Below the pieces are notes generated by a model that searched no databases, was not told the origin of the DNA, and was given only the letters and a program-made list of their open reading frames with translations. This document shows, in pieces, positions 41,195 through 56,690 of a stretch of 64,000 nucleotides of DNA. How positions within the stretch are numbered: the first letter of the stretch is position 1; the number at the start of each line of letters is the position of its first letter. Origin of the DNA: Pontiellaceae bacterium B12219 (GTDB taxonomy: Bacteria; Verrucomicrobiota; Kiritimatiellia; Kiritimatiellales; Pontiellaceae); NCBI GenBank assembly GCA_029432795.1, contig JARNMJ010000001.1, forward strand, positions 124,001 through 188,000, read 5' to 3'. The position numbers were made by a program, and so were the translations under genes.

Positions 41195-44100
41195 ATGGGT
41201 TCTATTTTACGACGCATTTACCAAATGACCCATATGAATGAACTACTTCCATACACTGAAAAGAAACTGAAAGACTGGGCGGGCTGGAGAGCATTCCGCG
41301 ACGGTAAAGCCCTGTTTGAACGCGGGGTTGTGGAGAAAGTGTCCTTTGAAGAACCGTTCATTACCGGTCAGCTGAATCTCGGACCGCGCGGTATGCGCAG
41401 TAAATTTGAAATTCTGAAAAACGGTTTGGTTGAGAACCACTGTCCCTGCCGCGACAATCAGGAGCGGGGATTGATCTGTTCGCATTTGGTGGCCATGGGG
41501 CTCGAAGTGCTGAAGCAGCATTCTGATCCATCGCGGAAGCAAAAGGCTTCGGCAGAAAAAAGTCGAATTGATCGTATTGCAAAAGCGGCCGAAGGGAACC
41601 GGATTCAACGCGTTCGCCAGGATACACCCGGTGCGGTGAAGGCTCAGTTGGTTATTGAACTGGCAGCCGATTGGCAGAATCAGCTGAACGGCGAAAAAAT
41701 CGGCATTCATGTTTCTGTTGATTATGATAAATACCGAAAACCGGCAGCCGATGTGCCGGGAGATATTCCATTTTCATTTCCCCGCAGAGACGAAAATCTG
41801 CTCTATGTGCTGGAGGATATCTGCGGGGGGGCTCTCAAGAGCGATATACAGATTTCTGTGTATGATCTGATCAATATTCTGCGCTTGCATCACGGTAAGG
41901 TGATTCTTTATCGGGGCTATAAAAAAGGCTGTCCGGTAAATAAGGAAATGCTGGATTCCAAGTTGGAAATGGACATGGATCGGGAGAACGGAGAGCTGAT
42001 CCTGAAGCTTTCCACGGAACTGCCTAATGGCGAAGTGGACCTCTTTCCTGTTTATATCATCGGGCAGAATACCGGTTGGATTTTCAGTGGCGGAGAGTTT
42101 TGGCCGCTGAGCAGTATTCTTCCGAAATCCATGCAGGAAATTTACAGCAACAGTATTGTTATTCCCCGCGAATCGGTTCCGTCGTTTATTATGACGGAGC
42201 TTCCGCAGGTTGAAAAGGTGATGGGGGTTCGGACAGACATTACTCCCGATCTGTTTTTCATGAAACCGGCCAAACCGGAATTCCGCCTTGTGGTTAAAGG
42301 CAGCCCGGCTTCGCTGGCCGCCACGCTTTATGCCCGTTATGAAGGCGAGGTGGAATTGGTGGCCGGTCGCGCTGATATGCGCGGCAATTTTGCCATACCG
42401 GACCCACGGGACCTTTTGAAATATCGTATTCGTAACATGGCCGCTGAAAAGAAGGCGGTCGAGCGTCTGCATGTGGTCGGTTTCGATGGCCGCGCCGGTG
42501 ATACGCTGAAAAATATTGTGGGCCCGCGCGAGGTGCTGAACTTTCTGGGAACCGGCGTGCCGCAAATCCGCCGTTTCGGCTGGAAGGTGGAGCTGGAAGG
42601 TCGGGTGAAGCCATTTGCAGAAAAAGCCGACTATATTACGCCGATCGTTCATGTGGATGAATCGGAGGAAGGCAACTATTTCGACGTAAGCTATGAATAT
42701 GAAGTCGGAACCGGAAGCATTTCGGAACGTGATATTCAGCGGGCGTTGATGAAAGGCGATTCGTTCATTGAACGGAACGGCCGCACGATTCTGCTCGACG
42801 GCGACGCCATTCTGCAGGCCCGCGAAGTGTTTGAAGATTGTGCGATAGGCACCGGAACCAAGCCGGGTTCGTTCAAAATGAGCGGTATCTACGGCAGCTA
42901 TGTGGAAGCCTCGCTGAATGCGCTCGATGGCATCAGCATTGAGGCCACGCCGAACTGGATGGAGCGGGCAAAGCTGCAGAATGAACAGGTGTCGGTTGAA
43001 GATGTCGAGCTGCATCCGGAGTTAAAAGCCACCCTGCGTTCGTATCAGCAGGAAGGGGTTAATTGGCTCCGTTTTCTGGAAAATCGCGGGTTTTGCGGTG
43101 TGCTTGCCGATGAAATGGGGCTGGGTAAAACCCTGCAAACATTGGCCTGGATTCAGTTGGGCCGGACGGATGAACGGCATCAGGGGAAACCGGCTCTCAT
43201 CATCTGTCCGACCAGTCTGGTTGAAAACTGGTTGGAAGAAGCGGCCAAATTCACTCCCAATTTAAAAGCATTGACGCTTCATGGAACCGATCGTCATCGC
43301 AAATGGAAAAATGTGCCGAAGGTGGATTTGGTCATCACTTCCTATGCATTGATGCGTCGCGATATTGAAAAGCATCTGGAGTTCACCTATTCCATCGCGA
43401 TTCTTGACGAAGCGCAGCACATTAAAAACCGCACCACACAAAACTCCTTGGCTGCGAAAAAAATTATTGCAGACCATAAGCTGGTGCTCACCGGCACTCC
43501 GATCGAAAACGGGGTCACCGATCTCTGGTCGATTATGGATTATCTGATGCCCGGTTATCTGGGGAGTCACAAAGATTTCCGAGAGCACTATGAGCTCCCG
43601 ATTCTTAATGGCGGAGCTGACGGTGAGCTGGCTCAGATCAAGCTCCGTCGGAAACTGCATCCGTTCCTTTTGCGCCGCCTGAAGAAACATGTGGCCAAAG
43701 ATCTGCCCGAAAAAATTGAGCGTATTGCTCCCTGTAAACTCACTCAGGATCAGCACAGGGTTTATCGACAGCTGCTCGAAGATTCCAAGGCCCGGATCAA
43801 CGATATGGTGGAGAAAGAAGGCTTTAATAAAAGTCGGATGGAAATTCTTAAAACGCTGTTGCGCCTTCGTCAGACCTGTAACCATATTGATTTGCTGAAA
43901 CTGGATGGTGTGAAGAGTAAGCACCCATCAGCCAAAATGGAATTGTTCTTTGAACTGCTCGGAGAAGCGATCGATAGTAAGCACCGTGTTTTGGTCTTCA
44001 GTCAGTTCACGAGCATGCTGGGCATTCTTAAAGAAGAAATGGCTGAACGGAAAATTAAATATACCTATCTCGACGGCAGTACGAAAGATCGTCAGGATGT

Positions 44101-44437
44101 TGTACGCAAATTCAACCAGGACCACAGTATTCCGGTATTCCTGATGAGTTTGAAAGCCGGCGGAACCGGCTTGAACCTGACGGGTGCGGATATGGTGATT
44201 CACTTCGATCCCTGGTGGAATCCGGCGGTTGAAGATCAGGCCACCGACCGCGCGCATCGTATCGGACAGAAACGCACCGTTTATTCCGTCAAACTGATCT
44301 CTAAAGGCACTGTGGAAGAAAAGGTGGTTGAGATGCAGGAACGTAAAAAAGGCATCATCGACGCCACGCTCACCACCGACGAACAGGTTATGCAGAAGCT
44401 CACCTGGGAAGATGTTCAGGAACTGCTGAGTCTTTAA
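41195..44437 (+). CDS. SWIM zinc-finger SNF2-family helicase
   Basis: 1080 residues. Near the N-terminus is a SWIM zinc finger (CPCRDNQERGLICSHLVAMG, C-x-C...C-x-H). The middle is a long beta-rich region. The C-terminal 450 residues are the SNF2 ATPase: DEMGLGKTLQTLAW, LDEAQHIKN, and helicase C with SLKAGGTGLNLTGADMVIHFDPWWNP and DRAHRIGQ. Bacterial SNF2/RapA relatives act on RNA polymerase or DNA; this one's target is unknown. The start is uncertain: ATG 41195, 41225 or 41234 lack a Shine-Dalgarno. Confidence 0.9.
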   Translation: MGSILRRIYQMTHMNELLPYTEKKLKDWAGWRAFRDGKALFERGVVEKVSFEEPFITGQLNLGPRGMRSKFEILKNGLVENHCPCRDNQERGLICSHLVAMGLEVLKQHSDPSRKQKASAEKSRIDRIAKAAEGNRIQRVRQDTPGAVKAQLVIELAADWQNQLNGEKIGIHVSVDYDKYRKPAADVPGDIPFSFPRRDENLLYVLEDICGGALKSDIQISVYDLINILRLHHGKVILYRGYKKGCPVNKEMLDSKLEMDMDRENGELILKLSTELPNGEVDLFPVYIIGQNTGWIFSGGEFWPLSSILPKSMQEIYSNSIVIPRESVPSFIMTELPQVEKVMGVRTDITPDLFFMKPAKPEFRLVVKGSPASLAATLYARYEGEVELVAGRADMRGNFAIPDPRDLLKYRIRNMAAEKKAVERLHVVGFDGRAGDTLKNIVGPREVLNFLGTGVPQIRRFGWKVELEGRVKPFAEKADYITPIVHVDESEEGNYFDVSYEYEVGTGSISERDIQRALMKGDSFIERNGRTILLDGDAILQAREVFEDCAIGTGTKPGSFKMSGIYGSYVEASLNALDGISIEATPNWMERAKLQNEQVSVEDVELHPELKATLRSYQQEGVNWLRFLENRGFCGVLADEMGLGKTLQTLAWIQLGRTDERHQGKPALIICPTSLVENWLEEAAKFTPNLKALTLHGTDRHRKWKNVPKVDLVITSYALMRRDIEKHLEFTYSIAILDEAQHIKNRTTQNSLAAKKIIADHKLVLTGTPIENGVTDLWSIMDYLMPGYLGSHKDFREHYELPILNGGADGELAQIKLRRKLHPFLLRRLKKHVAKDLPEKIERIAPCKLTQDQHRVYRQLLEDSKARINDMVEKEGFNKSRMEILKTLLRLRQTCNHIDLLKLDGVKSKHPSAKMELFFELLGEAIDSKHRVLVFSQFTSMLGILKEEMAERKIKYTYLDGSTKDRQDVVRKFNQDHSIPVFLMSLKAGGTGLNLTGADMVIHFDPWWNPAVEDQATDRAHRIGQKRTVYSVKLISKGTVEEKVVEMQERKKGIIDATLTTDEQVMQKLTWEDVQELLSL

Positions 44438-44459
44438 AGCTGAATTGGGGGGGGATTAT

Positions 44460-44503
44460 GGAATGGATGGACGGCCGTTAAAACAGGCTCGTTCCATCAT
44501 TCC
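44460..44503. terminator. Possible bidirectional hairpin between SNF2 and kdsA
   Basis: GGAATGGATGGAC and GTTCCATCATTCC are near-complementary with one bulge, in the gap between two convergent genes. The loop is long (about 18 bases) and T-runs are weak, so this is tentative. Confidence 0.35.
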
Positions 44504-44519
44504 GTTTATCCAACGACCA

Positions 44520-45335
44520 TTATTTAATCTGATCGATGGCGTCCAGCTTTTCCCAGAGTTTGGAAAGATCATTCAGCGGGATCATATTCGGACCGTCAGA
44601 AAGGGCTTCCGCCGGATTGGGGTGGGTTTCAATGAACATGCCGTCCACACCAACTGCCGCAGCTGCTTTGGCCAGATACGGTGCAAATCGTCCGTCACCA
44701 CCGGAGGTGTCGCCCTGTCCGCCCGGTGATTGCACAGAGTGGGTTGCATCAAAAATTACGGGATAGCCGAGTTCGGCCATAATAATCAGACTGCGCATGT
44801 CGGCGACGAGTGTATTGTAGCCGAAGGAGGCGCCGCGTTCAGTCAGCAGAATATTTGTGTTGCCGGTGGATTCAATTTTTTTCACCACGTTGGCCATATC
44901 CCAGGGAGCGGCAAACTGGGCTTTTTTCACATTCACCACAGCACCGCTTTCTCCGGCGGCCACCACAAAGTCGGTCTGCCGAATCATGAAGGCCGGAAGC
45001 TGGATGATGTCGACGACCTGAGAAGCAATCTTCACTTCTTCCACACTGTGGACATCAGTCAGCACGGGAATGTTATATTTTTCCTTAATCTCGGCCAGAA
45101 TCTCCAGGCCTTTTTCAATGCCGGGACCGCGATAGGAATGGATGGAGGTGCGATTGGCTTTGTCGTAGGATGCCTTGAACACAAAGGGAATATTTTGTTT
45201 TTCAGAAAGTTTTACCAGTCGGTCGGCAATTTCCATGCATCCCTCACGACTCTCAATCACGCAGGGGCCTGCAATCATTGCCAGTGGATTTTCCCCGCCG
45301 AACTTTACACCGTTTACCTGAACTGTTTTTGCCAT
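44520..45335 (-). CDS. kdsA: 3-deoxy-8-phosphooctulonate synthase
   Basis: 271 residues. It condenses PEP and arabinose 5-phosphate to KDO 8-phosphate for lipopolysaccharide, which implies an LPS-bearing outer membrane. C25 in AGPCVIES is the metal ligand of the metal-dependent class; E. coli-type enzymes have Asn there. Also visible are KASYDKANRTS and SPGGQGDTSGGDGRFAP. Monocistronic-looking, with TAAGAGG just upstream of its ATG on the minus strand. Confidence 0.95.
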   Translation of the reverse strand: MAKTVQVNGVKFGGENPLAMIAGPCVIESREGCMEIADRLVKLSEKQNIPFVFKASYDKANRTSIHSYRGPGIEKGLEILAEIKEKYNIPVLTDVHSVEEVKIASQVVDIIQLPAFMIRQTDFVVAAGESGAVVNVKKAQFAAPWDMANVVKKIESTGNTNILLTERGASFGYNTLVADMRSLIIMAELGYPVIFDATHSVQSPGGQGDTSGGDGRFAPYLAKAAAAVGVDGMFIETHPNPAEALSDGPNMIPLNDLSKLWEKLDAIDQIK

Positions 45336-45430
45336 CTTATAATCCTCTTAAAAATTGAAAATGAACACAGACTATCAACTGTGTTCATTCCGTTGCCAAA
45401 TGCAAAAGCACTCAATTTCAAGTAAAGTGC

Positions 45431-45973
45431 TTATTTGCCGATCAGTTTCAGGAATTCATTACGGGTGGATGAATCCTTGCGGAAGCTTCCGAGCATGGCG
45501 GAGGTGACCATGCAGGAGTTTTGTTTTTCAACACCACGCATCATCATACAGAGATGCTGAGCTTCGATAACAACGCCGACGCCTTCGGGCGTGACGGTTT
45601 CCATCAGCGTGGTGGCCACCTGGTTGGTGAGGCGCTCCTGAATCTGAAGTCGCCGGGCAAAGTGGTCGACAATACGTGCAAGTTTACTGACGCCGAGCAC
45701 TTTGCCTTCGGGGATGTAGCCGATGTGGCATTTTCCAAAAAATGGAAGCATGTGGTGCTCGCAGAGGCTGTAGAGTTCGATATCTTTCACAATAATCATG
45801 TGGTTGTCTTCAACGGTGAAAACAGCGTTATTGATGACATCTTCGAGTTTTTCGCGATAGCCTTTGGTGAGGAAGTCCATGGCTTTTGCGGCACGTTGCG
45901 GGGTGTCGAGCAGGCCCTCGCGTTCGGGGTTTTCGCCGATACGTGTGAGGATGTCTTTATAGAGTTCGTTCAT
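45431..45973 (-). CDS. folE: GTP cyclohydrolase I
   Basis: 180 residues of the zinc-dependent type. Zinc ligands are in [20 protein letters not shown] (C and H) and HLCMMMRG (C). It makes dihydroneopterin triphosphate, the first step of folate synthesis; folD at 55.8 kb uses the final cofactor. It is followed downstream on the same strand by cstA's opposite end, separated by heptamer locus C upstream of the folE ATG. Palindrome copy 20 overlaps the LPFFGKC codons near the zinc ligands. Confidence 0.96.
45733..45747. repeat. 15-bp palindrome copy 20 (in folE)
   Basis: TTCCAAAAAATGGAA, minus-strand phase 2, read as L-P-F-F-G-K. Confidence 0.72.
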
Positions 45974-45994
45974 GAAAAATCTCCGTTTCTATTG

Positions 45995-46070
45995 CGTATT
46001 ACATAATGCGTAACTTTTAATGCATGAAGACTCCGAATTCCGGAAGCAATACGCAATACGCAATACGCAC
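45995..46070. repeat. Heptanucleotide repeat locus C (cstA-folE gap)
   Basis: GCGTATT, ACATAAT and GCGTAAC (45995-46015) face three inverted-sense ACGCAAT units (46048-46070). The intervening 32 bp includes GAATTCCGGAAGC. It lies between the folE start and the cstA stop, which are on the same strand. Confidence 0.8.
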
Positions 46071-47764
46071 TAATTTCGTTTCAGTCGTGCGAGTACGATG
46101 ATGCCTTCGAGAATCATCCAGAGTTGAAGGATGGTGATGAGGATCCCGATGCCGAAGAGCAGCCAATTTCCGCCTGCAAAGAAGCTGACAAGGTTGATTT
46201 TCATCGCCCAGGTGGTCATGACAATCATAAACACCATCGGGAGTGCGGTGTAGATGATGTTTATTTTTTTGCGGGCCAGCCAGACGGTGATGACGAGCAG
46301 GGCAAGGCCGCCGAGCAACTGATTGACCGCACCGAAAAGCGGCCATAGCGAAAGTGCGCCTTTTCCATCGCCACCGCTGGAGAAGGCAAGCAGGAGGGCG
46401 GTGGCGACAGCGATGAAGGTGGCGGGGTGTTTCTTTCCAAGGGCTGGAACATTGCAGGTTTCGGCAATCTCGGAAATGATATAGCGTTGCAGTCGGGTGG
46501 CGGTGTCGAGCGTGGTGGCGGCGAAGGACGCCACAAAAACACCCATGAGTGTCAGGATGACGCCTTTAGGCAGGCCGAGCCCGGCGATCATATTGGAAGA
46601 ACCGATCACAAATGCATCGATTTTGGCGGCGAGCCCGCCGGCGGAAGACCAGCTTGCATATTGCTGGTTGAAGGCTTCCAATCCCTGGAAAACGGTTCCG
46701 TCTTTCTCCAGCCCGAGCCCAATGCCGGCACCGCAGGCAATGCTGACGATGATGGCCAGCATGCCTTCGAGCAGCATACCGCCATAGCTGATGGGCTGGG
46801 CGCTGGTTTCCTGATCGCATTGTTTGGACGAGGTGCCGGAGGAAACCAGACAGTGGAATCCGGAAATGGCTCCGCAGGCTACGGTGATGAACAGAAGCGG
46901 AATGAGCGAGGGGGCTCCTTCGACTGCAAAGTTGGTGGCGGGGGCAACCATGGGCGGATGGGTGACAAGAATGCCTAGAAATAGAAGGACCATGGCGATA
47001 CAGAGCTGGAAGGCATTGATATAGTCACGCGGTTGCAGCAATACGGTGACGGGCAGAGTTGAGGCCACGTAGGCATAAATCAGCAGGGCAATTACCCAGA
47101 TCCCGACATTGGAGAGACTTCCAAGGTCTGGAAGTATGATCGGGAACCGGGCACCGATCACAATCGTGGCATACATCAGAATGGTTGCTATGATGCCGTA
47201 GGTGATGTGCGATTTCCCTTTTTTGTACACCATGAATCCGAGCCAGATGGCAATGGGCAGCTGCAGCCAGACCGGGATGACGGATTCAGGGAAAATGGCG
47301 AAAACGGCGGCAATCACTACGCCGAATATGGCGATGACCAGCCAGAGCGCGAAGAAGATGATGAGCATGAAGAGCGATTTTACGCGCGGGTTGATGATGG
47401 TGCCGGCAATGTCGCCGATGGTCCGGCCTTCGTGCCGAAGGGAAATCATCATGGAACCGAAGTCGTGTACGGCTCCCATGAAAACGGAGCCGATGAGGAT
47501 CCAGATCAGTGCAGGAACCCAGCCCCAGATGATGGCGATGGCCGGGCCGACGATCGGGCCGGTTCCAGCGATGGAGGTGAAGTGATGACCGAAGAGGACG
47601 AGTTTGTCGGTGGCCACAAAATCGATGCCGTCCCGATGGGTTTCGCTGGGGCATTTTGCATGAGGGTCGACCTTGAAGATTCGGCGTCCGAGAAAGCGCC
47701 CATAGGTATGGTATGCAATGATATAGAGAATGGCTGCACCGGCGGCAATGATGAGAGAATTCAT
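46070..47764 (-). CDS. cstA: CstA-family carbon starvation/pyruvate transporter
   Basis: 564 residues with about 16 membrane helices. CstA hallmarks are AYHTYGRFLGRRIF, ATDKLVLFGHHFTSIAGTGPIVGPAIA and HDFGSMMISLRHEGRTIGDIAG. CstA/BtsT proteins import pyruvate or peptides. It lies 42 bp downstream of three tandem sensor-kinase-like genes on the same strand, suggesting common regulation. Three palindrome copies lie inside it. Confidence 0.93.
   Translation of the reverse strand: MNSLIIAAGAAILYIIAYHTYGRFLGRRIFKVDPHAKCPSETHRDGIDFVATDKLVLFGHHFTSIAGTGPIVGPAIAIIWGWVPALIWILIGSVFMGAVHDFGSMMISLRHEGRTIGDIAGTIINPRVKSLFMLIIFFALWLVIAIFGVVIAAVFAIFPESVIPVWLQLPIAIWLGFMVYKKGKSHITYGIIATILMYATIVIGARFPIILPDLGSLSNVGIWVIALLIYAYVASTLPVTVLLQPRDYINAFQLCIAMVLLFLGILVTHPPMVAPATNFAVEGAPSLIPLLFITVACGAISGFHCLVSSGTSSKQCDQETSAQPISYGGMLLEGMLAIIVSIACGAGIGLGLEKDGTVFQGLEAFNQQYASWSSAGGLAAKIDAFVIGSSNMIAGLGLPKGVILTLMGVFVASFAATTLDTATRLQRYIISEIAETCNVPALGKKHPATFIAVATALLLAFSSGGDGKGALSLWPLFGAVNQLLGGLALLVITVWLARKKINIIYTALPMVFMIVMTTWAMKINLVSFFAGGNWLLFGIGILITILQLWMILEGIIVLARLKRN
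46435..46449. repeat. 15-bp palindrome copy 21 (in cstA)
   Basis: TTCCAAGGGCTGGAA, minus-strand phase 2, read as V-P-A-L-G-K. Confidence 0.75.
46676..46690. repeat. 15-bp palindrome copy 22 (in cstA)
   Basis: TTCCAATCCCTGGAA, minus-strand phase 1, read as F-Q-G-L-E. Confidence 0.75.
47119..47133. repeat. 15-bp palindrome copy 23 (in cstA)
   Basis: TTCCAAGGTCTGGAA, minus-strand phase 2, read as L-P-D-L-G; identical to copy 6. Confidence 0.75.
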
Positions 47765-47806
47765 GGTTTTGTTGTAGCGCTCACCATCAAGCCGGGAAAA
47801 GCTTTT

Positions 47807-48820
47807 TTAGCATGATTCTTCAGAGTTGACGGGAAGGTTGCAGGAGGTGCGCGTCAGATTCGTTGGGGTTGTTCCAATGGAAATGGTGCCTCCGATTTTT
47901 CCGGCGCGGTATCGCATCAGGGGTAAACCCATGCCTTCTATTCTGCCGGACATGAAAGGTTTTCCGTCGTTTTCAATGTAAACGATGGTTTCCGTTGCGG
48001 TTTTCTCCAAACCGATGGTGATTGCTGCGGGCTGAGCATGTCGGACGGCATTGGTGACCGCTTCGAATATAATTTCGTAAATTCCTGATTTTTTATCCGA
48101 GGGAATTTTATCCCATTCCGGGGTTTCCTGATATTGAATTTTTGCAGAGGAAATCGGTTGAATTTGTCGCGCCATTTCGGAAATTGCATTTTGCAGGCGG
48201 TCGACCGAAACGATGTTTAGCGTTGCGTGTTGGTTTATGGTCTCCAGTTGATCTAGGCAGGTGTTAATGATCTTTCCGATTGTTTGGGCATCAGTGGCGC
48301 GGGGATGATTTTCAGCGCTTAATTTTTTTTCCAGCATCTCGTTGGTTCTCAGCATGCCTTGTAGTTTTTCATAGGGCAGTTCCAGCAGACTGGTGTTTAA
48401 TTCTTTGTTTTCTATGTGCCGGGCATCGATGAGATGGTTGGCCAGGTTTTTAAGGTCCCGAGTTCGCTCTTCCACGGTTTCTTCGAGCGTTTCGTTGAGA
48501 CGTTTATATTTGTTTTGCGAGGATTTCAGCAGAGCGGTGCAGCAGGAGAATAAGACCTGAGAGCCGATACCGAACGGATTCAGTGTTTCGGTGATGATGG
48601 CCGGATCGTCGGTATAGTACGAGAGCAGCAGATAGTGGATGGGGATGGTGGCCAGTGTGGTGTACAGCGCCCCGCGATAGAGAAAAAGCCAGCCGCCCAG
48701 CATGGTCAGCGGGATGGAAAAAAGCATGACGGTGATTTTCAGGGTGGGAAACAAGGCGAAAATGAATGCCAGATAAAGCAACCATGCGGTGAAGTAGATT
48801 ATTTTTTCAGTGCATTTCAT
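47807..48820 (-). CDS. Sensor kinase paralogue 3: ATP-binding boxes kept, HDGxGQ motif absent
   Basis: 337 residues. About four membrane helices (1-98) and a coiled coil (100-130) match the two genes upstream. Where those have E-L-H-D-G-I-G-Q, this one reads ELNTSLLELPYEKLQG: no phosphoacceptor histidine motif. The HATPase domain looks intact: N-box EAVTNAVRH (E253, N257, H261), G1 IENDGKPF and G2 EGMGLPLMRYRAG (295-307). It could supply the ATPase half to its paralogues. Last of a three-gene operon (4-bp overlap with the gene upstream), 42 bp before cstA. Confidence 0.82.
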   Translation of the reverse strand: MKCTEKIIYFTAWLLYLAFIFALFPTLKITVMLFSIPLTMLGGWLFLYRGALYTTLATIPIHYLLLSYYTDDPAIITETLNPFGIGSQVLFSCCTALLKSSQNKYKRLNETLEETVEERTRDLKNLANHLIDARHIENKELNTSLLELPYEKLQGMLRTNEMLEKKLSAENHPRATDAQTIGKIINTCLDQLETINQHATLNIVSVDRLQNAISEMARQIQPISSAKIQYQETPEWDKIPSDKKSGIYEIIFEAVTNAVRHAQPAAITIGLEKTATETIVYIENDGKPFMSGRIEGMGLPLMRYRAGKIGGTISIGTTPTNLTRTSCNLPVNSEESC

Positions 48821-49824
48821 AGTGATGATGAGATTTCGAGTTTAGGAACAGTAAAAGTAATCATTGGGCGGTTGTCGATAGTGGCCGAAACCTTTTGTGA
48901 TCCGCCCACCTGCTTTAATCGGTATTGGATGAGATCGGTTAATGCATGGGGGTGGTTTGCGGAGGCTGATCCGTTGTGAATAATTTCCACACTATAATCT
49001 CTGAGGGAGGGGCGGCGTATGCAGATTTCGAGTTGATCGGCCTTGCATAAATCGATGAAGTTGATGCAGCTCTCCTGGCAGACTCGGAAGAGTTGCAGGC
49101 TTTCGTTTTCCGGAAGAACCGAGGGGGATGAAAGGTCTTTGAATATGACCTGGGCCGGTCGGATTTTGCTCAGGCACTCGGCCAGCTCGTCCAAGGCGGC
49201 TGCGAGGCCAACCTGTGCAATTCGAATGGGAAACAGAGTTCGGGCAATTTCGCGAATTTGATTGTGAACGGTATTGCATGAGTTCATCAAGGAAGTGCAA
49301 AATTGGCTGAGACTGTGCTTTTCAAGTTCCAATTGGTGAGCAAGGGAGGAGGTGAGGAGCTGTATTCCGGTTAATTGCTGTCCTATTCCGTCGTGTAATT
49401 CCTGCCCCTGAATCATCCGGCGTGTTTCTGCATCATCGATCAGCTGGTCTGTTAGGACCTGTAATTCGGTCTCCCGCTCGCGAATTCGTTTGTCGAGTTC
49501 CCGGTTTAATGCACGTATGCCATGGTAGTTTTTTCGCAATTCCCCGAATAGGAATATGATTGTGAAAAAGAGAAGCGGGCCTGTTGCCCTGTCCATATAA
49601 TAGATATATTCATCGCCATGAATCTGACTCAGCAAAAACGTGATGAAAGAGAAAAACAGCGCCAGTAAAAGTCCTGTTGTTGTGCCGAATAACCAAACGC
49701 CTAAGGCCAAAAGTGGAAGGGATGGAATGGCAACATTTGAATTCAGCTCTGGAAAGAAATAGAAGCAGCACGTCACATAAATAACGCAGAGCAACGGATA
49801 TAAAATGATTTCCAGCTTCTTCAT
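48817..49824 (-). CDS. Sensor kinase paralogue 2: HDGIGQ kept, ATP-binding boxes degenerate
   Basis: 335 residues. Four to five membrane helices (1-95) lead into a coiled coil and a HisKA_3 domain with H144 in QELHDGIGQQLTGIQL. The HATPase region keeps E251 and N255 (CQESCINFIDLCKADQ) but has lost the K/R-H pair, and the G-boxes are absent (HNGSASANHPHALTDLIQYRL). It probably cannot bind ATP normally. No response regulator is adjacent. It overlaps paralogue 3 by 4 bp and lies 3 bp after paralogue 1. Confidence 0.82.
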   Translation of the reverse strand: MKKLEIILYPLLCVIYVTCCFYFFPELNSNVAIPSLPLLALGVWLFGTTTGLLLALFFSFITFLLSQIHGDEYIYYMDRATGPLLFFTIIFLFGELRKNYHGIRALNRELDKRIRERETELQVLTDQLIDDAETRRMIQGQELHDGIGQQLTGIQLLTSSLAHQLELEKHSLSQFCTSLMNSCNTVHNQIREIARTLFPIRIAQVGLAAALDELAECLSKIRPAQVIFKDLSSPSVLPENESLQLFRVCQESCINFIDLCKADQLEICIRRPSLRDYSVEIIHNGSASANHPHALTDLIQYRLKQVGGSQKVSATIDNRPMITFTVPKLEISSSL

Positions 49825-49827
49825 ATT

Positions 49828-50835
49828 TTATTCTGGATCGGTAGGCTGAACCGGAATGATAAACTGTACAGTGCGTGTACTTGTCGTTTCTGGCAGAATT
49901 CTCAATTTTCCCCGTAGCATGCGTAGTCGATGCTGAATTAAATTAAAGGAAGCATTTCTTAGCGTAGCATCGGGAAAGTTGCCGTTATGTGTTACGGAAA
50001 TTGTGATTCTGGCTTCATCGCCACAAACTGCTAAGCAAACTTGGTCAGCTTTAAGACTGTCAATCGAATAGAGGGCTGATTCCTGACAAATACGGTAAGT
50101 TTGCAACATGAGCGGTACCGGAACCTGCGGAAGTTTTTTCGTTTCAGAAGTTACAGATTTGACTGGTTTTACATCCTGCAGGCAGGAAGACAGCTCATTG
50201 ATTGCTGAAACTAGACCAACCTGTTCCATGCGAACAGGGAACAATAAACGTGATATTTTGCGGAGATGATTGTGCAGCTTGATGGTTTGGTTTTGCAGAT
50301 GATGCGCGTTGGATGCAATCGGATTCTTTTCCTGTAGAAGTTGATCGGCAAGAGATGCTGAAATCAGCTGAATTCCCGTCAACTGCTGCCCGATTCCATC
50401 ATGCAAGAGCTGAGCTTGTTTAATTTTGATAGTTTCATAGTTTTCCAATAATTTTTCAGTTAATTCCGAAAGCTCCCGATTACGTTCCAAAACCAATTGG
50501 TCGAGCCGAAGGTTAGTTTTTTTTATATTGAGATATTGATCTCTAAGCGATCCCGTTAAGAACGCAACAGCGATTAAAAGAAGGTATCCAGTGAATTTAT
50601 ATTCATAGAAAACCAATACATCCGGATATATAAAACTGGTTAGCAAGCTCAAGTGGGTTATTGAGATGAGGATCAGCAGCAGTCCAACCGTGCGGCCAAA
50701 AAGCCATGAGCCCAGACTAAGAAGAAAGAAAACGGGAATGGCACAGGAAATTCTAAGTTGAGGGAATGCCACAACAGTGAAAATGACGTAAATAATCCAG
50801 AGTAAGCTATACAGATAGATGGTTATGGGCTTCAT
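49828..50835 (-). CDS. Sensor kinase paralogue 1: HDGIGQ kept, ATP-binding boxes degenerate
   Basis: 335 residues, the same architecture as paralogue 2. H145 lies in AQLLHDGIGQQLTGIQLISA. In the HATPase region the N-box reads ICQESALYSIDSLKADQ, with the Asn position replaced by Y256, and the G2 box is lost (NASFNLIQHRLRMLRGK). First gene of the trio; its promoter must lie between 50836 and the divergent gcvT start at 50961. The N-terminal motif PQLRISCAIPVFFLLSLGSWLFG aligns with both siblings, indicating tandem duplication. Confidence 0.82.
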   Translation of the reverse strand: MKPITIYLYSLLWIIYVIFTVVAFPQLRISCAIPVFFLLSLGSWLFGRTVGLLLILISITHLSLLTSFIYPDVLVFYEYKFTGYLLLIAVAFLTGSLRDQYLNIKKTNLRLDQLVLERNRELSELTEKLLENYETIKIKQAQLLHDGIGQQLTGIQLISASLADQLLQEKNPIASNAHHLQNQTIKLHNHLRKISRLLFPVRMEQVGLVSAINELSSCLQDVKPVKSVTSETKKLPQVPVPLMLQTYRICQESALYSIDSLKADQVCLAVCGDEARITISVTHNGNFPDATLRNASFNLIQHRLRMLRGKLRILPETTSTRTVQFIIPVQPTDPE

Positions 50836-50960
50836 GAGAATCGTGACTTCTTTCTTGATAAATCTATGGCATAGCCAGTTTAAAAATACACGATTTAAAG
50901 ATTAATAAGATCAAATTCAAATTGCGGCGCTTTCTCGGTTTTTGTAGACTGCACCTCATT

Positions 50961-52040
50961 ATGAAAATAACTCCGCTGCACGCGCAGCATCAAAAAGTCG
51001 GGGCCAGGATGGGGGAGTTCGGCGGATGGGATATGCCGATTCAATATGCCGGAATCCTGGATGAACATGAGCAAACCCGGCGGCATGCCTCGGTGTTTGA
51101 TATCTGTCACATGGGCGAGTTTGAACTCTACGGAAAAACGGCGCTCCAGGATCTTGAAAATTTGCTCACCTGCAATATCCGTTCCCTGAAAATCGGGCAG
51201 GTTCGCTACGGGTTTATGCTCAATGAACAGGGTGGGGTAATCGACGATTTAACCTGCTACCGTCTCGATCATGATCGCTATATGCTCGTGGTGAATGCCG
51301 GAACCGCCGAAAAAGACGCCCGTTGGATTCAGGACCATATTTCCTCCGAAACCATCTTCGTTGATCTCTCGGAGCATACGGCCAAGCTGGATATTCAGGG
51401 GCCTGAATCGCGCGATGTGCTCGAAGCCGTTTTCGGTTGCACTCTCCCGGACCTTGGATATTTCCGCTTCCGCGAGTTTCAGGCATTGGAAGCTTCAACC
51501 ATTATCAGCCGCACCGGATACACCGGGGAACTGGGTTATGAAGTCTATCTGCCGAACGACGCCGCTGTACGGCTTTGGGATAAAATTGCGGCGCATCCCT
51601 ATTGCGAGCCCGGAGGACTGGGTGCGCGCGACACGCTCCGCCTGGAAATGGGCTATCCGCTTTATGGCCATGAATTGACCGACGTGCGTTCTCCGGCCGC
51701 GTATTCCCGCGGACTGTTTATTGACCGGAACAAGGAATTTATCGGTAAAAAACAGGTTATGAACGATCTGGAAATTCCCGATGTGCTATTGGTGGGGCTT
51801 AAATTCAGTTCCAAACGAGCCGCCAGAGCGCATGATAAAATTTTTGCGGGCGATATCGAAATCGGAGAAATCACCAGTGGTTCGCTGGCACCCAGCCTCG
51901 GAGTTGCCGTTGCCATGGCCTATGTGAAAGCCGATTTTTCCAAGGTTGGGAATATGCTCGATGTGGAAATCCGCGGAAAACGATTCCCTGCCGAAATTGT
52001 CGATCTGCCGTTTTACAAAAACGGCACTGCCCGAGGATAG
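50961..52040 (+). CDS. gcvT: Glycine cleavage system T protein (aminomethyltransferase)
   Basis: 359 residues. It starts MKITPLHAQHQKVGARMGEFGGWDMPIQY and ends with the C-terminal barrel RFPAEIVDLPFYK. It releases ammonia from the aminomethyl-H protein and passes the one-carbon unit to tetrahydrofolate. I chose ATG 50961; the frame extends to a TTG at 50922 but that part is unlike GcvT. First of gcvT-gcvPA-gcvPB; no gcvH gene lies in this run. Confidence 0.95.
   Translation: MKITPLHAQHQKVGARMGEFGGWDMPIQYAGILDEHEQTRRHASVFDICHMGEFELYGKTALQDLENLLTCNIRSLKIGQVRYGFMLNEQGGVIDDLTCYRLDHDRYMLVVNAGTAEKDARWIQDHISSETIFVDLSEHTAKLDIQGPESRDVLEAVFGCTLPDLGYFRFREFQALEASTIISRTGYTGELGYEVYLPNDAAVRLWDKIAAHPYCEPGGLGARDTLRLEMGYPLYGHELTDVRSPAAYSRGLFIDRNKEFIGKKQVMNDLEIPDVLLVGLKFSSKRAARAHDKIFAGDIEIGEITSGSLAPSLGVAVAMAYVKADFSKVGNMLDVEIRGKRFPAEIVDLPFYKNGTARG
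51948..51962. repeat. Near-match of the 15-bp palindrome (in gcvT)
   Basis: TTCCAAGGTTGGGAA, 14 of 15, phase 3, read as S-K-V-G-N. Confidence 0.45.
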
Positions 52041-52087
52041 TTCAGGCCACGGAGCTCCGTGGTAATAAAAAAATAAAGGTTGGAATA

Positions 52088-53437
52088 ATGAAAAAAACGC
52101 CCTTTTGCGCAACCAGTCAAAAAGATCAGGAGGTGATGTTCCAAACCTTGGGCATTTCCGACTTCGACGATCTCTTTGCCGCGATTCCCGATCATCTGCG
52201 TTCGGCAGAACTCAATATGCCCGACGGTCTCTCGGAAATGGAGATGATGCAGCATATTCGAAAACTGGCCCGGAAAAATTCAACGAACCTGGTAAATTTC
52301 TGCGGGGCGGGTTTTTACGATCATTATATTCCTGCGGCCGTGAATGCGCTGGCCAGCCGTGGCGAATTTTATACCGCCTACACGCCGTATCAGCCCGAAG
52401 CCTCGCAAGGTACGCTGCAGGCGGCCTTTGAATACCAGACCGCCATCTGCCGGCTCACAGGAATGGAAGTGGCCAACGCCTCGCTGTTCGATGGCGGTAC
52501 GGCATTGATCGAAGGTATCATGATGGCGTTGCGCCACACCCGGCGCAACAAGGTATTGGTTGATGAAGGCGTGAGTCCGATCTACCGAAAAATGCTGCGG
52601 TGCTACACCCAGAACCTTTCCGTCGACTATCAGGAAATTCCAATGTCCGGAAAAGGTATTGCGGATCGGGCGGCGATTACTGCGCAGCTGGACGCCGCCG
52701 TCGGAGCCGTTGTGTTGCAGAATCCCAACTTTTTCGGGTGTCTTGATAATCTGACCGATCTCATTGAGCAGATTCATTCCGTTAAAGCGCTGGCCGTGAT
52801 GTCGGCCTATCCGATTGCGCTGTCGCAGGTGGAAACGCCCGGAGCCATGGGAGCGGATATTGTGACCGGCGAAGGGCAGAGCCTCGGGCTCCCGCTGAAT
52901 TTCGGCGGCCCGTATCTCGGTTTTATGGCTACCCGGAAAAGTCTGGTGCGTAAAATGCCCGGCCGAATTGTCGGTGAAACAGAAGATGCGCAGGGGCGTC
53001 GCGGTTATGTGCTGACCCTGCAGGCCCGCGAGCAGCATATCCGCCGGGAAAAGGCGACCTCGAACATCTGTTCCAACGTGCAGCTTTGTGCGCTGCGCGC
53101 CATCATTTATCTTTCGCTGATCGGCCGTGAAGGTTTTCTGGAAGTCGGCCGCGAGTGCATGGACCGGGCGAGCTATGCCTGGCATAAACTTACAAAAATT
53201 GAAGGGGTGGAACCCGCCTTCAATCGCCGCTTTTTTAACGAGTTCGCCATTCGGCTTCCGAAAGATGCCACAGAGGTGGTCAGCTCGCTGGTCGATCAGG
53301 GATTTGCAGCCGGTTTCCCGGTCGGCCGCTATTATAAAGGTATGGAAAATGTCCTCCTGCTGGCCTTCACGGAAAAGCGTACCAAAGAGGAAATAGACAT
53401 TCTGGTTGCCAAACTCGAAAGCGCCCTGAAGGCTTAA
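52088..53437 (+). CDS. gcvPA: Glycine dehydrogenase (decarboxylating) subunit 1
   Basis: 449 residues, the N-terminal half of the split P protein. Visible are IPAAVNALASRGEFYTAYTPYQPEASQGTLQ, GMEVANASLFDGGTALIEG and GEGQSLGLPLNFGGPYLGFMA. With GcvPB it decarboxylates glycine on the lipoyl arm of GcvH. A 47-bp gap separates it from gcvT, and gcvPB starts 12 bp after it. Confidence 0.96.
   Translation: MKKTPFCATSQKDQEVMFQTLGISDFDDLFAAIPDHLRSAELNMPDGLSEMEMMQHIRKLARKNSTNLVNFCGAGFYDHYIPAAVNALASRGEFYTAYTPYQPEASQGTLQAAFEYQTAICRLTGMEVANASLFDGGTALIEGIMMALRHTRRNKVLVDEGVSPIYRKMLRCYTQNLSVDYQEIPMSGKGIADRAAITAQLDAAVGAVVLQNPNFFGCLDNLTDLIEQIHSVKALAVMSAYPIALSQVETPGAMGADIVTGEGQSLGLPLNFGGPYLGFMATRKSLVRKMPGRIVGETEDAQGRRGYVLTLQAREQHIRREKATSNICSNVQLCALRAIIYLSLIGREGFLEVGRECMDRASYAWHKLTKIEGVEPAFNRRFFNEFAIRLPKDATEVVSSLVDQGFAAGFPVGRYYKGMENVLLLAFTEKRTKEEIDILVAKLESALKA
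52638..52652. repeat. 15-bp palindrome copy 24 (in gcvPA)
   Basis: TTCCAATGTCCGGAA, phase 2, read as I-P-M-S-G-K. Confidence 0.72.
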
Positions 53438-53449
53438 GGAGATTTTGAT

Positions 53450-54898
53450 ATGAAACTGATTTATGAAAAATCGTCGCCGGGTCGGCCCGGGATTCGGATG
53501 TCTTCACTCAAAATTTCGGAAACGGAGGAAATTCCTACTAAATATCTGCGGAGCAAGCCGGCGGAATTACCGGAGGTTTCGGAAGCGGAAGTCGTGCGCC
53601 ATTTCACGGCACTTTCGCGGATGAATTTTTCGGTGGACACACACTTTTATCCGCTGGGTTCCTGTACCATGAAATACAATCCGAAGGCCTGTGAAGCGGC
53701 GGCAAATCTTCCGGAATTGACGGATGTGCATCCGCTCTGGCCGCAGTTGCGCGGCGGGGGAATGCTGACGCAGGGCTCGCTGGCCATTCTGTACAATACG
53801 GAACGTCTGCTTTCTGAGGCAACGGGTTTGGCGGAGTTCACGTTGCAGCCGATGGCGGGAGCGCATGGCGAACTGACGGGCGTTATGATCATGGCAGCCT
53901 ATCACAAGGATCAGGGAAATCCGGAGAAGGATCATATCATTATTCCCGATTCGGCTCATGGAACCAATCCGGCGAGTGCGCGGGTGGCGGGGTATAACGT
54001 GGTTACGGTTCCATCCGATGAAAACGGAGTGATGGATTTTGATCTGTTTATGGAAACGCTGAATGAAAAAACGGCGGGTGTAATGCTGACGAGTCCGAAT
54101 ACGCTGGGTGTTTTCAATCCGCGGATTAAGGAGATCTGCGATGCCGTTCATGCGGTGGATGGATTGATGTATTATGATGGTGCCAATTTTAATGCGATTA
54201 TGGGGCGGTATCGTCCGGGCGATATGGGCTTTGATATCTGCCATTTGAATCTGCACAAATCCTTTGCGACGCCGCACGGCGGTGGCGGACCGGGGTCGGG
54301 CCCGGTGGGCGTTGTTGAAAAACTGCGGCCTTATCTGCCGATTTCCCGTGTGGAAAAAACAAAGGACGGGACTTTTGCGCTGAACTATGATGAGCCAAAA
54401 AGTATTGGGTATATTGCCCCGTTTTACGGGAACTTCGGTATGATTTCCCGAGCTTATGCCTACATTCTTTCATTGGGTAAAGACGGGATGCTGGGCACGA
54501 GCAACCGCGCGGTTTTGAATGCCAACTATCTGCAGGAAAAACTGCGACCGTTATTTAATACGGAATACAACGGTCGGTGCATGCATGAATTTGTCTATTC
54601 CGGCGATGTTTTGAAGCAATACGGAGTGCATACGCTGGATCTGGCGAAGGGCATGATCGATCGGGGGATTCATCCGCCGACGGTTTATTTCCCGCTCAAT
54701 GTGTCTGAGGCGATTATGGTGGAACCGACGGAGTCGGAGGATCTGGATACGCTGGACCACTTTGTGGATGTGATGGAAGAGCTCTTCGAAATCGCAAAAA
54801 CTGATCCGGATCAATTGCATGCCGCGCCGGTTACAACGCCGGTCGGTCGTTTGGATGAAGTGAAGGCGGCCAGGGATATGCGCCTCAGCTATACCTGA
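53450..54898 (+). CDS. gcvPB: Glycine dehydrogenase (decarboxylating) subunit 2
   Basis: 482 residues, the C-terminal half of the split P protein. The PLP lysine is in CHLNLHKSFATPHGGGGPGSG. Also visible are FYPLGSCTMKYNPK and HGTNPASARVAGY. The split PA/PB form is typical of Gram-positives, Thermotoga and many PVC bacteria. A GGAG ribosome site precedes the ATG. Its partner lipoyl-GcvH depends on lipA at the start of the window. Confidence 0.96.
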   Translation: MKLIYEKSSPGRPGIRMSSLKISETEEIPTKYLRSKPAELPEVSEAEVVRHFTALSRMNFSVDTHFYPLGSCTMKYNPKACEAAANLPELTDVHPLWPQLRGGGMLTQGSLAILYNTERLLSEATGLAEFTLQPMAGAHGELTGVMIMAAYHKDQGNPEKDHIIIPDSAHGTNPASARVAGYNVVTVPSDENGVMDFDLFMETLNEKTAGVMLTSPNTLGVFNPRIKEICDAVHAVDGLMYYDGANFNAIMGRYRPGDMGFDICHLNLHKSFATPHGGGGPGSGPVGVVEKLRPYLPISRVEKTKDGTFALNYDEPKSIGYIAPFYGNFGMISRAYAYILSLGKDGMLGTSNRAVLNANYLQEKLRPLFNTEYNGRCMHEFVYSGDVLKQYGVHTLDLAKGMIDRGIHPPTVYFPLNVSEAIMVEPTESEDLDTLDHFVDVMEELFEIAKTDPDQLHAAPVTTPVGRLDEVKAARDMRLSYT

Positions 54899-55015
54899 GG
54901 TGGGTGAAATAAGTTGTTCGTGACATTTTAATATTTTCCGATAGGATGCTGGAATAAATCAGACCAGATTAGTCATCTATTTTAAACTGGTTGATCAAAT
55001 AATAGGAGCTACACC

Positions 55016-55222
55016 ATGAAAAGAATGATGAGTATCGCTGCAATTGCATTATTTATGGCCGGTTCATCTGCGTTGGCATGCGACAGTTGCGGATGTACAG
55101 CTAAGAAAGCTGAAAAGAAAACGGAATGTACGACCTGTTCGAAAGACAAAAAAGCGGAAACCAAATGCGGTGCTGACTGCAAAAAAGCCTGTTGCACCAA
55201 GACGACTGAAGCTAAGAAATAA
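55016..55222 (+). CDS. Small secreted cysteine-rich peptide
   Basis: 68 residues. A signal peptide (MKRMMSIAAIALFMAGSSALA, cleaved after ALA) precedes a 47-residue mature part with nine cysteines and about fifteen lysines: CDSCGC, then CTTC, CGADC and KKACC. The pattern resembles metallothionein-like metal binders, with no named family I can assign. A ribosome site (AGGAG) and a strong intrinsic terminator frame it, so it looks like an independent, well-expressed gene. Confidence 0.8.
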   Translation: MKRMMSIAAIALFMAGSSALACDSCGCTAKKAEKKTECTTCSKDKKAETKCGADCKKACCTKTTEAKK

Positions 55223-55241
55223 TCTGCTGTCAGTCTGTATG

Positions 55242-55271
55242 AAAAACCTCTCCCTTCGGAGGGGTTTTTTT
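55242..55271 (+). terminator. Intrinsic terminator after the cysteine-rich gene
   Basis: AACCTCTCC / GGAGGGGTT stem (one G-T pair) with a CTTC loop and a seven-T run. Confidence 0.92.
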
Positions 55272-55273
55272 GT

Positions 55274-55288
55274 TTCCAGCCTTCGGAG
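55274..55288. repeat. Near-match of the 15-bp palindrome (first of a cluster)
   Basis: TTCCAGCCTTCGGAG, 14 of 15, directly after the terminator. Confidence 0.55.
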
Positions 55289-55289
55289 C

Positions 55290-55304
55290 TTCCAGAGTTT
55301 GGAA
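55290..55304. repeat. 15-bp palindrome copy 25 (cluster)
   Basis: TTCCAGAGTTTGGAA, 1 bp after the near-match. Confidence 0.8.
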
Positions 55305-55347
55305 AAAGTAAAATCGGGTTTGCCGCTCTGGATGGCCAAGGGTAGTA

Positions 55348-55362
55348 TTCCAATCCTTGGAA
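55348..55362. repeat. 15-bp palindrome copy 26 (cluster)
   Basis: TTCCAATCCTTGGAA, 13 bp before the DUF4870 gene; identical to copy 11. Confidence 0.8.
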
Positions 55363-55375
55363 ATCGGGAAAGAAA

Positions 55376-55780
55376 ATGGAAAACGACGAAATGAAAAGTG
55401 CAGAGGGAATCATTGAAAAAACAACGCCTGCTCCGTTGGGAAAGAACGAGCGCCAGTGGGGCATGGCATGTCATTTGTCGGCTTTGATTGGTTATCTGCT
55501 TCCCGTTCCTTCCGCAAATTTTATCGGCCCGCTGGTTATTTGGTTGATGAAGCGGGAAGAGGGCGCATTTGTGGATGAACAAGGTAGGGAATCGCTTAAT
55601 TTCCAGCTGAGTATTTTGATTTATGTGATCGGTTGCGGGATTCTTATGCTTATCGGGATCGGGATGCTGCTGATTTTTCCTTTAGTTGTTTTCGGCTTTG
55701 TTTGTCCAATCATTGGAGCAATTAAAGCGAGCAATGGCATCGCCTATCGCTATCCCTTATGCATACGTTTTATTAAATAG
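55376..55780 (+). CDS. DUF4870 small membrane protein
   Basis: 134 residues with a cytoplasmic N-terminus and about three membrane segments. The DUF4870 pattern is visible in WGMACHLSALIGYLLP, FIGPLVIWLMKREEGAFVDEQGRESLNFQLS and FPLVVFGFVCPIIGAIKASNG. Function is unknown. It lies between the palindrome cluster and folD. Confidence 0.88.
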   Translation: MENDEMKSAEGIIEKTTPAPLGKNERQWGMACHLSALIGYLLPVPSANFIGPLVIWLMKREEGAFVDEQGRESLNFQLSILIYVIGCGILMLIGIGMLLIFPLVVFGFVCPIIGAIKASNGIAYRYPLCIRFIK

Positions 55781-55802
55781 ATTTAAAGTGGAGTCAGAAG
55801 AT

Positions 55803-56690
55803 ATGTCGGCAAAGATTATTGATGGAAAACAGATCGCAGCGGAAATCCGGGAGGAATTGAAGGCGGAAGTTGCTGAGTTAAAGGAGCAGGGCGTTGTTCC
55901 CGGTCTGGGTGTTATTCTCGTGGGAGAAGATCCCGCATCCCAATCCTATGTAACAGCCAAAGAACGCGCCTGCGAAACGATCGGAATTTTTTCCGATGAT
56001 AACCGACTGCCGGCCGATACCACGCAGGAAGAGTTGCTGAAACTCGTAAACCGGATGAATGACGATCCGAAAATCAATGGGATTCTGGTTCAGCTTCCGT
56101 TGCCGAAGCACATTGATGAAGCTGCGGTTCTTTTGGCAATTGATCCGGATAAAGATGTGGATGGTTTTCATCCGATGAACGTCGGGAAAATGATGGTGGG
56201 TGAAAAGGCCTTTCTCCCCTGCACACCGAACGGGGTGGTTCAGCTGTTGCTCCGCAGTGGTGTTGAAACTGCCGGCGCGCATGTGGTGGTGGTCGGGCGC
56301 AGTAACATCGTCGGGAAACCGGTTGCAAATATGCTGTTGCAGAAGAAGGAGGGGGCGAATGCCACAGTAACGCTCTGCCATACCCGCACGAAGGATCTCG
56401 CCTTTCATACCCGCCAGGCAGACATCATTATTGCCGCTTCCGGATGGCCGAATACGATTACGGCCGATATGGTGAAAGATGGCGTGGTTGTTATTGATGT
56501 CGGCGTGAACCGCGTGGAAGATGCCTCCCGCGAGCGGGGATATCGCCTGGTTGGTGATGTGGATTTTGAAGAAGTCAAAGAGAAGGCAGCCTTGATTACG
56601 CCGGTGCCGGGCGGGGTCGGACCGATGACGATTACGATGTTGTTGTTTAATACGGTTGAGTCTGCGCGGCGGGCACACGGATTAGCATAA
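55803..56690 (+). CDS. folD: Methylenetetrahydrofolate dehydrogenase/cyclohydrolase
   Basis: 295 residues. It starts MSAKIIDGKQIAAEIREEL, with the catalytic lysine in SYVTAKERACETIGI and the FolD signatures QLPLPKHI and PVPGGVGPMTITMLL. It interconverts methylene- and 10-formyl-THF, linking glycine cleavage to purine synthesis. The start is ATG 55803; an upstream frame at 55686 overlaps the DUF4870 gene. Confidence 0.96.
   Translation: MSAKIIDGKQIAAEIREELKAEVAELKEQGVVPGLGVILVGEDPASQSYVTAKERACETIGIFSDDNRLPADTTQEELLKLVNRMNDDPKINGILVQLPLPKHIDEAAVLLAIDPDKDVDGFHPMNVGKMMVGEKAFLPCTPNGVVQLLLRSGVETAGAHVVVVGRSNIVGKPVANMLLQKKEGANATVTLCHTRTKDLAFHTRQADIIIAASGWPNTITADMVKDGVVVIDVGVNRVEDASRERGYRLVGDVDFEEVKEKAALITPVPGGVGPMTITMLLFNTVESARRAHGLA

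Follow-up and report, generated by a model that had tools for sequence, protein, structure and literature searches.

Tandem sensor-kinase paralogues in Pontiellaceae as a candidate split HisKA_3 histidine kinase

Histidine kinases are normally homodimers with all functions on one chain, and to our knowledge few natural split kinases have been described, most of them of the CheA type. In Rhodobacter sphaeroides, the acceptor and ATP-binding functions of CheA3 and CheA4 reside on separate, mutually dependent proteins, and the acceptor protein is also a phosphatase; according to theory, separating the kinase from the phosphatase can yield switch-like signalling (PMC3591291). The closest parallel to the locus described here is FasB/FasC of group A Streptococcus, a pair of tandem paralogous membrane sensor kinases that form heterodimers, in which the acceptor histidine is located on FasC, the kinase domain of FasC is dispensable and that of FasB is active (PMC12675982). 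A split histidine kinase with one regulator was also proposed for Hik36 and Hik43 of Synechocystis (PMC7656254). The ChrS pseudokinase (PMC9491836), DivL and RetS are kinase-like proteins that act via partners. In a genomic survey, 1.7% of HisKA proteins had no HATPase domain but carried a phosphatase motif, and such proteins could be split.

The window analysed here is a 64,000-nucleotide stretch of the 4.7-Mb assembly of Pontiellaceae bacterium B12219. It contains three tandem sensor-kinase genes on the reverse strand (positions 47807–50835). Paralogue A (49828–50835) is of the acceptor type and consists of a four-helix transmembrane (TM) sensor, a coiled coil, a DHp region with the HDGIGQ motif and a degenerate CA domain. 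Paralogue B (48817–49824), also of the acceptor type, contains the DHp motif H144-D145-G-I-G-Q149 and a degenerate CA domain without the G-x-G loop. Paralogue C (47807–48820) is of the catalytic type: its sensor resembles that of A and B, its DHp region has no His, Asp or Gln, and its CA domain carries an N-box (E253/N257/H261) and a G-box (G296/G298). A and B are separated by 3 bp, and B and C overlap by 4 bp, exactly as in the sequence-only reading of this DNA, which had described three nearly fused sensor-kinase genes with a shared membrane sensor of four to five helices. Its remark that no response regulator is adjacent is likewise correct; a conserved orphan regulator is encoded elsewhere in the genome.

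The Pfam profile HisKA_3 (cut-off of 24 bits) was matched by B above the cut-off (32.6 bits) and by A under it (20.1 bits), and C matched HATPase_c with 31.1 bits, above the Pfam cut-off. No HATPase match was found by Pfam in A or B and no HisKA_3 match in C; thus, no single protein is a complete HisKA_3 kinase. The motifs are also as the earlier reading gave them, with the HDGIGQ histidine in A and B and no HDGxGQ motif in C. The top NCBIfam matches were UhpB, NarQ and MctS, all of which are HisKA_3-type kinases. The Hpt domain of CheA-type proteins was not matched by Pfam, and the acceptor lies in a HisKA_3 DHp helix. Profile alignment to solved structures of the DesK/NarX type placed the motifs on known catalytic residues: the histidine of the acceptor-type proteins (AB proteins below) corresponds to His188 of DesK, and the boxes of C align with the N- and G-boxes of DesK and VraS.

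To evaluate the distribution of the locus, 28 genomes of the genus (Pontiella/Kiritimatiellales) were compared, and the kinase locus was readable in 19 of them. The array was present in all 19 and had the same organization throughout, with one to three AB genes followed on the same strand by exactly one C gene, which is always the last. Kinase fragments at contig ends in two further genomes (G002 and G023) bring the total with the kinase to 21. Of the 14 AB–C junctions measured, 13 are spaced by about 10 bp or less (−8 to +10), often with a 4-bp overlap. The number of AB copies varies, with two or three in four or five genomes, and C is single in every case. AB remnants, mostly consisting of the sensor only, were found in G001 (87 aa) and G027 (152 aa), at L056 9086-9349 and L058 9657-10115, and these are evidence of copy turnover. 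Extra paralogues considered in G005 and G012 were rejected, the reading frames there looking like spurious ones over the adjoining gcvT. A search of 346 genomes of the class gave no full-length C-type protein beyond the genus; among the matches listed outside the genus, alignments start at about residue 79 or later and cover the kinase core only.

When 26 AB and 19 C proteins were aligned, a complementary pattern of conservation emerged. The phosphoacceptor histidine is present in 26/26 AB and 0/19 C proteins, and the phosphatase glutamine in all 26 AB proteins; the HisKA_3 motif H-D-x-x-x-Q was found in 25 of the 26 AB proteins, with one AB protein having HN in place of HD, and C alone does not contain it. 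Residues N257, H261, G286, G296, G298 and T323 are invariant among the C proteins (19/19), and E253 is retained in 18. Among the AB proteins, the second glycine of G-x-G (G298) is never found (0/26) and the N-box asparagine occurs in two, one of which is B. Thus, the earlier statement that A and B have lost their ATP-binding boxes holds overall but not residue by residue, since B retains the N-box asparagine while having neither the N-box histidine nor G-x-G. The companion statement that C keeps its N- and G-boxes stands, with E253, N257, H261 and EGMGLPLMRYRAG all present. The invariant columns were reproduced by alignments made with separate tools. Mean pairwise identity, calculated with one AB and one C protein per genome, was 0.59 for the H-box helix of AB vs. 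0.29 for that of C, and 0.245 for the CA domain of AB vs. 0.37 for that of C.

By sequence, the acceptor and ATP-binding functions are distributed between separate proteins, a pattern which recurs in 19/19 genomes with a readable locus and is far beyond chance. The sequence-only reading held that the paralogues together could form one working kinase; in that case, selection across species should preserve the function proper to each half and let the other one degenerate. The alignments agree with this, and neither an intact ATP site among the 26 AB proteins nor an acceptor histidine among the 19 C proteins was found in them.

Compared with the N-box, G1 (D-x-G-x-G) and G2 boxes of GHKL ATP-binding domains, C has an intact N-box and G-x-G, and the aspartate of the G1 box that contacts adenine is replaced by asparagine in all 19 C proteins. 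Few kinases from outside the genus share this asparagine, which makes ATP binding by C less than certain. AgrC-type kinases also have an asparagine at this position, and the presence of the same residue in some other kinases means that C may still bind ATP.

AlphaFold modeling of B (pLDDT 83) gave four TM helices (residues 2–22, 32–46, 48–68 and from 81 onwards) that run into the DHp region. In the model of C (pLDDT 82), the CA domain fits the ATP domains of VraS and DesK. Both models comprise a helical membrane part, a long helix leading into the DHp region, a hairpin and an alpha/beta CA-like domain; the nearest solved structures were those of DesK, and the CA parts match VraS with TMt values of 0.77 (B) and 0.76 (C). 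Each protein was modelled as a monomer, and with pTM values of 0.57 (B) and 0.40 (C), which are low to moderate, the models support the fold and not a complex.

A maximum likelihood tree united the AB and C proteins in one clade (support 99/97), nested within a clade (98/96) together with intact kinases of other families of the class and an intact kinase of the genus. The latter type (G000:C205:7106-8376 in this genome; about 440–480 aa) is conserved, has an adjoining NarL-type regulator and is present in most of the genus; of the intact kinases in this genome, it is the one most closely related to the proposed split kinase. Read most simply, the tree implies a single tandem duplication and then complementary loss. 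AB and C are each recovered as one group with moderate support only (58/20 and 76/91), and a more complicated history may apply.

The orphan NarL-type regulator (G000:C206:31489-32148) was found in 23 of the 28 genomes, including 21/21 of those with the kinase. Residues D12, D13, D58 and K108 of its receiver do not vary, and no kinase was found beside its gene. The regulator clade groups (99/99) with regulators that adjoin the intact kinases closest to AB and C; both the kinase and the regulator thus share ancestry with intact kinase–regulator pairs. The regulator occurs without a detected kinase in G009 (59% complete) and G013 (85% complete), and neither was found in G010, G014, G015, G019 and G022. 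Absence of the regulator from five of the seven kinase-less genomes gives a Fisher p of 2e-4, a value not corrected for phylogeny. Four of the five double-negative genomes are small, so most of the weight is borne by G014 (3.4 Mb, 94% complete), and co-occurrence within a single genus is partly a matter of the two being inherited together. In G008 (93% complete), no HisKA_3 protein other than AB and no NarL-type regulator other than the orphan one was detected; the remaining GerE match in this genome belongs to a sigma-factor-like protein.

All these characteristics allow us to assume, with a probability of about 0.73, that the locus encodes a split, obligately heteromeric HisKA_3 sensor kinase similar to DesK, NarX and UhpB, with the orphan NarL-type regulator as its likeliest partner. 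The AB subunits (A and B) would supply the phosphoacceptor histidine, the neighbouring aspartate and the phosphatase glutamine, and C would supply the ATP-binding domain. Pairing of AB with C could proceed via the sensor, coiled coil and DHp region, because all subunits carry the same four-TM sensor and coiled coil; the tight spacing of the genes likewise favours a complex. C would then phosphorylate the AB histidine, and AB would hand the phosphate to the regulator encoded elsewhere, probably at Asp58 of the orphan protein, while free AB, with Gln149 retained, would be expected to act as the phosphatase. Extension of this scheme to an obligate heteromer throughout the genus, in which complementary loss after tandem duplication left one shared C that drives one to three acceptor/phosphatase AB subunits and one orphan regulator receives several sensor inputs, is held with less assurance, though we incline slightly towards it.

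The neighbouring genes provide some indication of a possible role. Divergent from the kinases in nearly all loci is a gcvT-gcvPA-gcvPB-like operon (50922–54898), a steadier neighbour of the array than cstA; its first gene (50922–52040, forward strand) presumably encodes the glycine cleavage T protein and is followed by the gcvPA- and gcvPB-like genes. Located 3' of the kinases on the same strand is cstA (46070–47764; PF02554, 458 bits), encoding a CstA/BtsT-type pyruvate or peptide transporter; it is the next downstream gene in most genomes of the genus and is not beside the array in G017, G018 and G020. A folE-like gene (45431–45973, reverse strand), whose product we take to be GTP cyclohydrolase I, is a further conserved neighbour 3' of the kinases. 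In G016, the array-side cstA (G016:C151:234457-235767; L055 10455-11897) is a distant, shorter member of the CstA family (the others have roughly 564 aa), and the transporter has apparently been replaced in place. In G025 and G003, the array-side cstA seems truncated or broken (L057 9465-9782 and L068 9915-10316), due to either pseudogene formation or an assembly error.

The intergenic region 50836–50990 contains an element (around GCCGCAANNGGAATTTGATCTTATTAG) conserved in many genomes of the genus just 5' of the apparent gcvT promoter. In the window, it corresponds to GAATTTGATCTTATTA (50902–50918, reverse strand) on the gcvT side and is a candidate regulator-binding site. With up to three mismatches (<=3), the element occurs in about 8 of the 19 kinase–gcvT intervals, compared with 0.6 expected per 64 kb of shuffled sequence. 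This motif was not found near the orphan regulator gene, which shares no promoter motif with the kinase locus, and an Rfam scan of positions 44000–56000 revealed neither a glycine riboswitch nor another RNA. The likeliest targets would be the neighbours gcvT-gcvPA-gcvPB, cstA and folE. CstA-family proteins of E. coli import pyruvate (PMC5847655, PMC7730263), and btsT is under the control of BtsS, a pyruvate-sensing kinase (PMC10653868). Together with the gcv, cstA and folE neighbours, this link makes control of glycine cleavage and of one-carbon or pyruvate metabolism plausible; the signal and the targets themselves are guesses.

In another explanation, the AB proteins would be pseudokinases that serve as phosphatases or bind the regulator, C would be a DivL- or RetS-like partner with an inhibitory or allosteric effect, and any phosphate on AB would come from another intact kinase, for example that of the C205 type. 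The phosphatase glutamine retained in every AB protein, the C205-type kinase as the nearest intact relative in the genome and the precedents of DivL-like proteins and RetS/GacS (structure match 7n0e) speak for it, but a purely allosteric C would need no invariant ATP-site residues and no other HisKA_3 kinase was detected in G008. Moreover, the acceptor histidine is invariant in AB, although phosphatase activity in this family does not need it, as for NarX (cited in PMC5231405). Hence, we regard this explanation as unlikely. Still less probable is a split kinase that serves a different partner, such as the regulator adjoining the C205-type kinase or several regulators at once: the C205 partner is the next closest regulator and cross-talk is possible among NarL-type kinases, but the C205 regulator already has its own adjoining intact kinase and G008 has no other detected NarL-type regulator. 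Independent decay, in which an originally intact kinase left several degenerating copies that do nothing together, is very improbable, for although the remnants in G001 and G027 indicate that copies die, the complementary residues are invariant over 19 genomes with the same halves lost each time, the reading frames remain open, a single C is kept in every case, and such mirror-image constraint with near-absolute complementarity would not be produced by decay.

The split, heteromeric HisKA_3 kinase thus proposed would be a compact, full-length and conserved membrane example of a candidate two-part sensor with a named candidate regulator. Since G008 has one kinase pair and one regulator, the idea is directly testable with a few purified proteins. 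No earlier report of the locus was found in the literature searched. Split kinases are already known from CheA3/CheA4 and FasBC, and what appears to be new here, as judged from the sequences, is the HisKA_3 membrane variant. CheA3 and CheA4 have the CheA/HPt architecture, belong to a cytoplasmic cluster and have whole domains missing, whereas the present proteins are HisKA_3 membrane sensors whose domains are full-length and seem to have been inactivated in a complementary fashion. Hik36 and Hik43 are CheA-type proteins as well, and their genes are far apart in the genome (PMC7656254). DesK, VraS, NarX, UhpB and MctS belong to the same DHp and CA families according to profile and fold matches but are homodimers with both functions on one chain, and the partner of ChrS (PMC9491836), DivL or RetS is itself a complete kinase. 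FasB retains candidate DHp histidines (H241 and H284), and its ComE-type regulator FasA is encoded in the same operon (PMC12675982); in the present locus, by contrast, C has no acceptor histidine in 19/19 genomes, the acceptor gene has multiplied and the regulator gene lies elsewhere.
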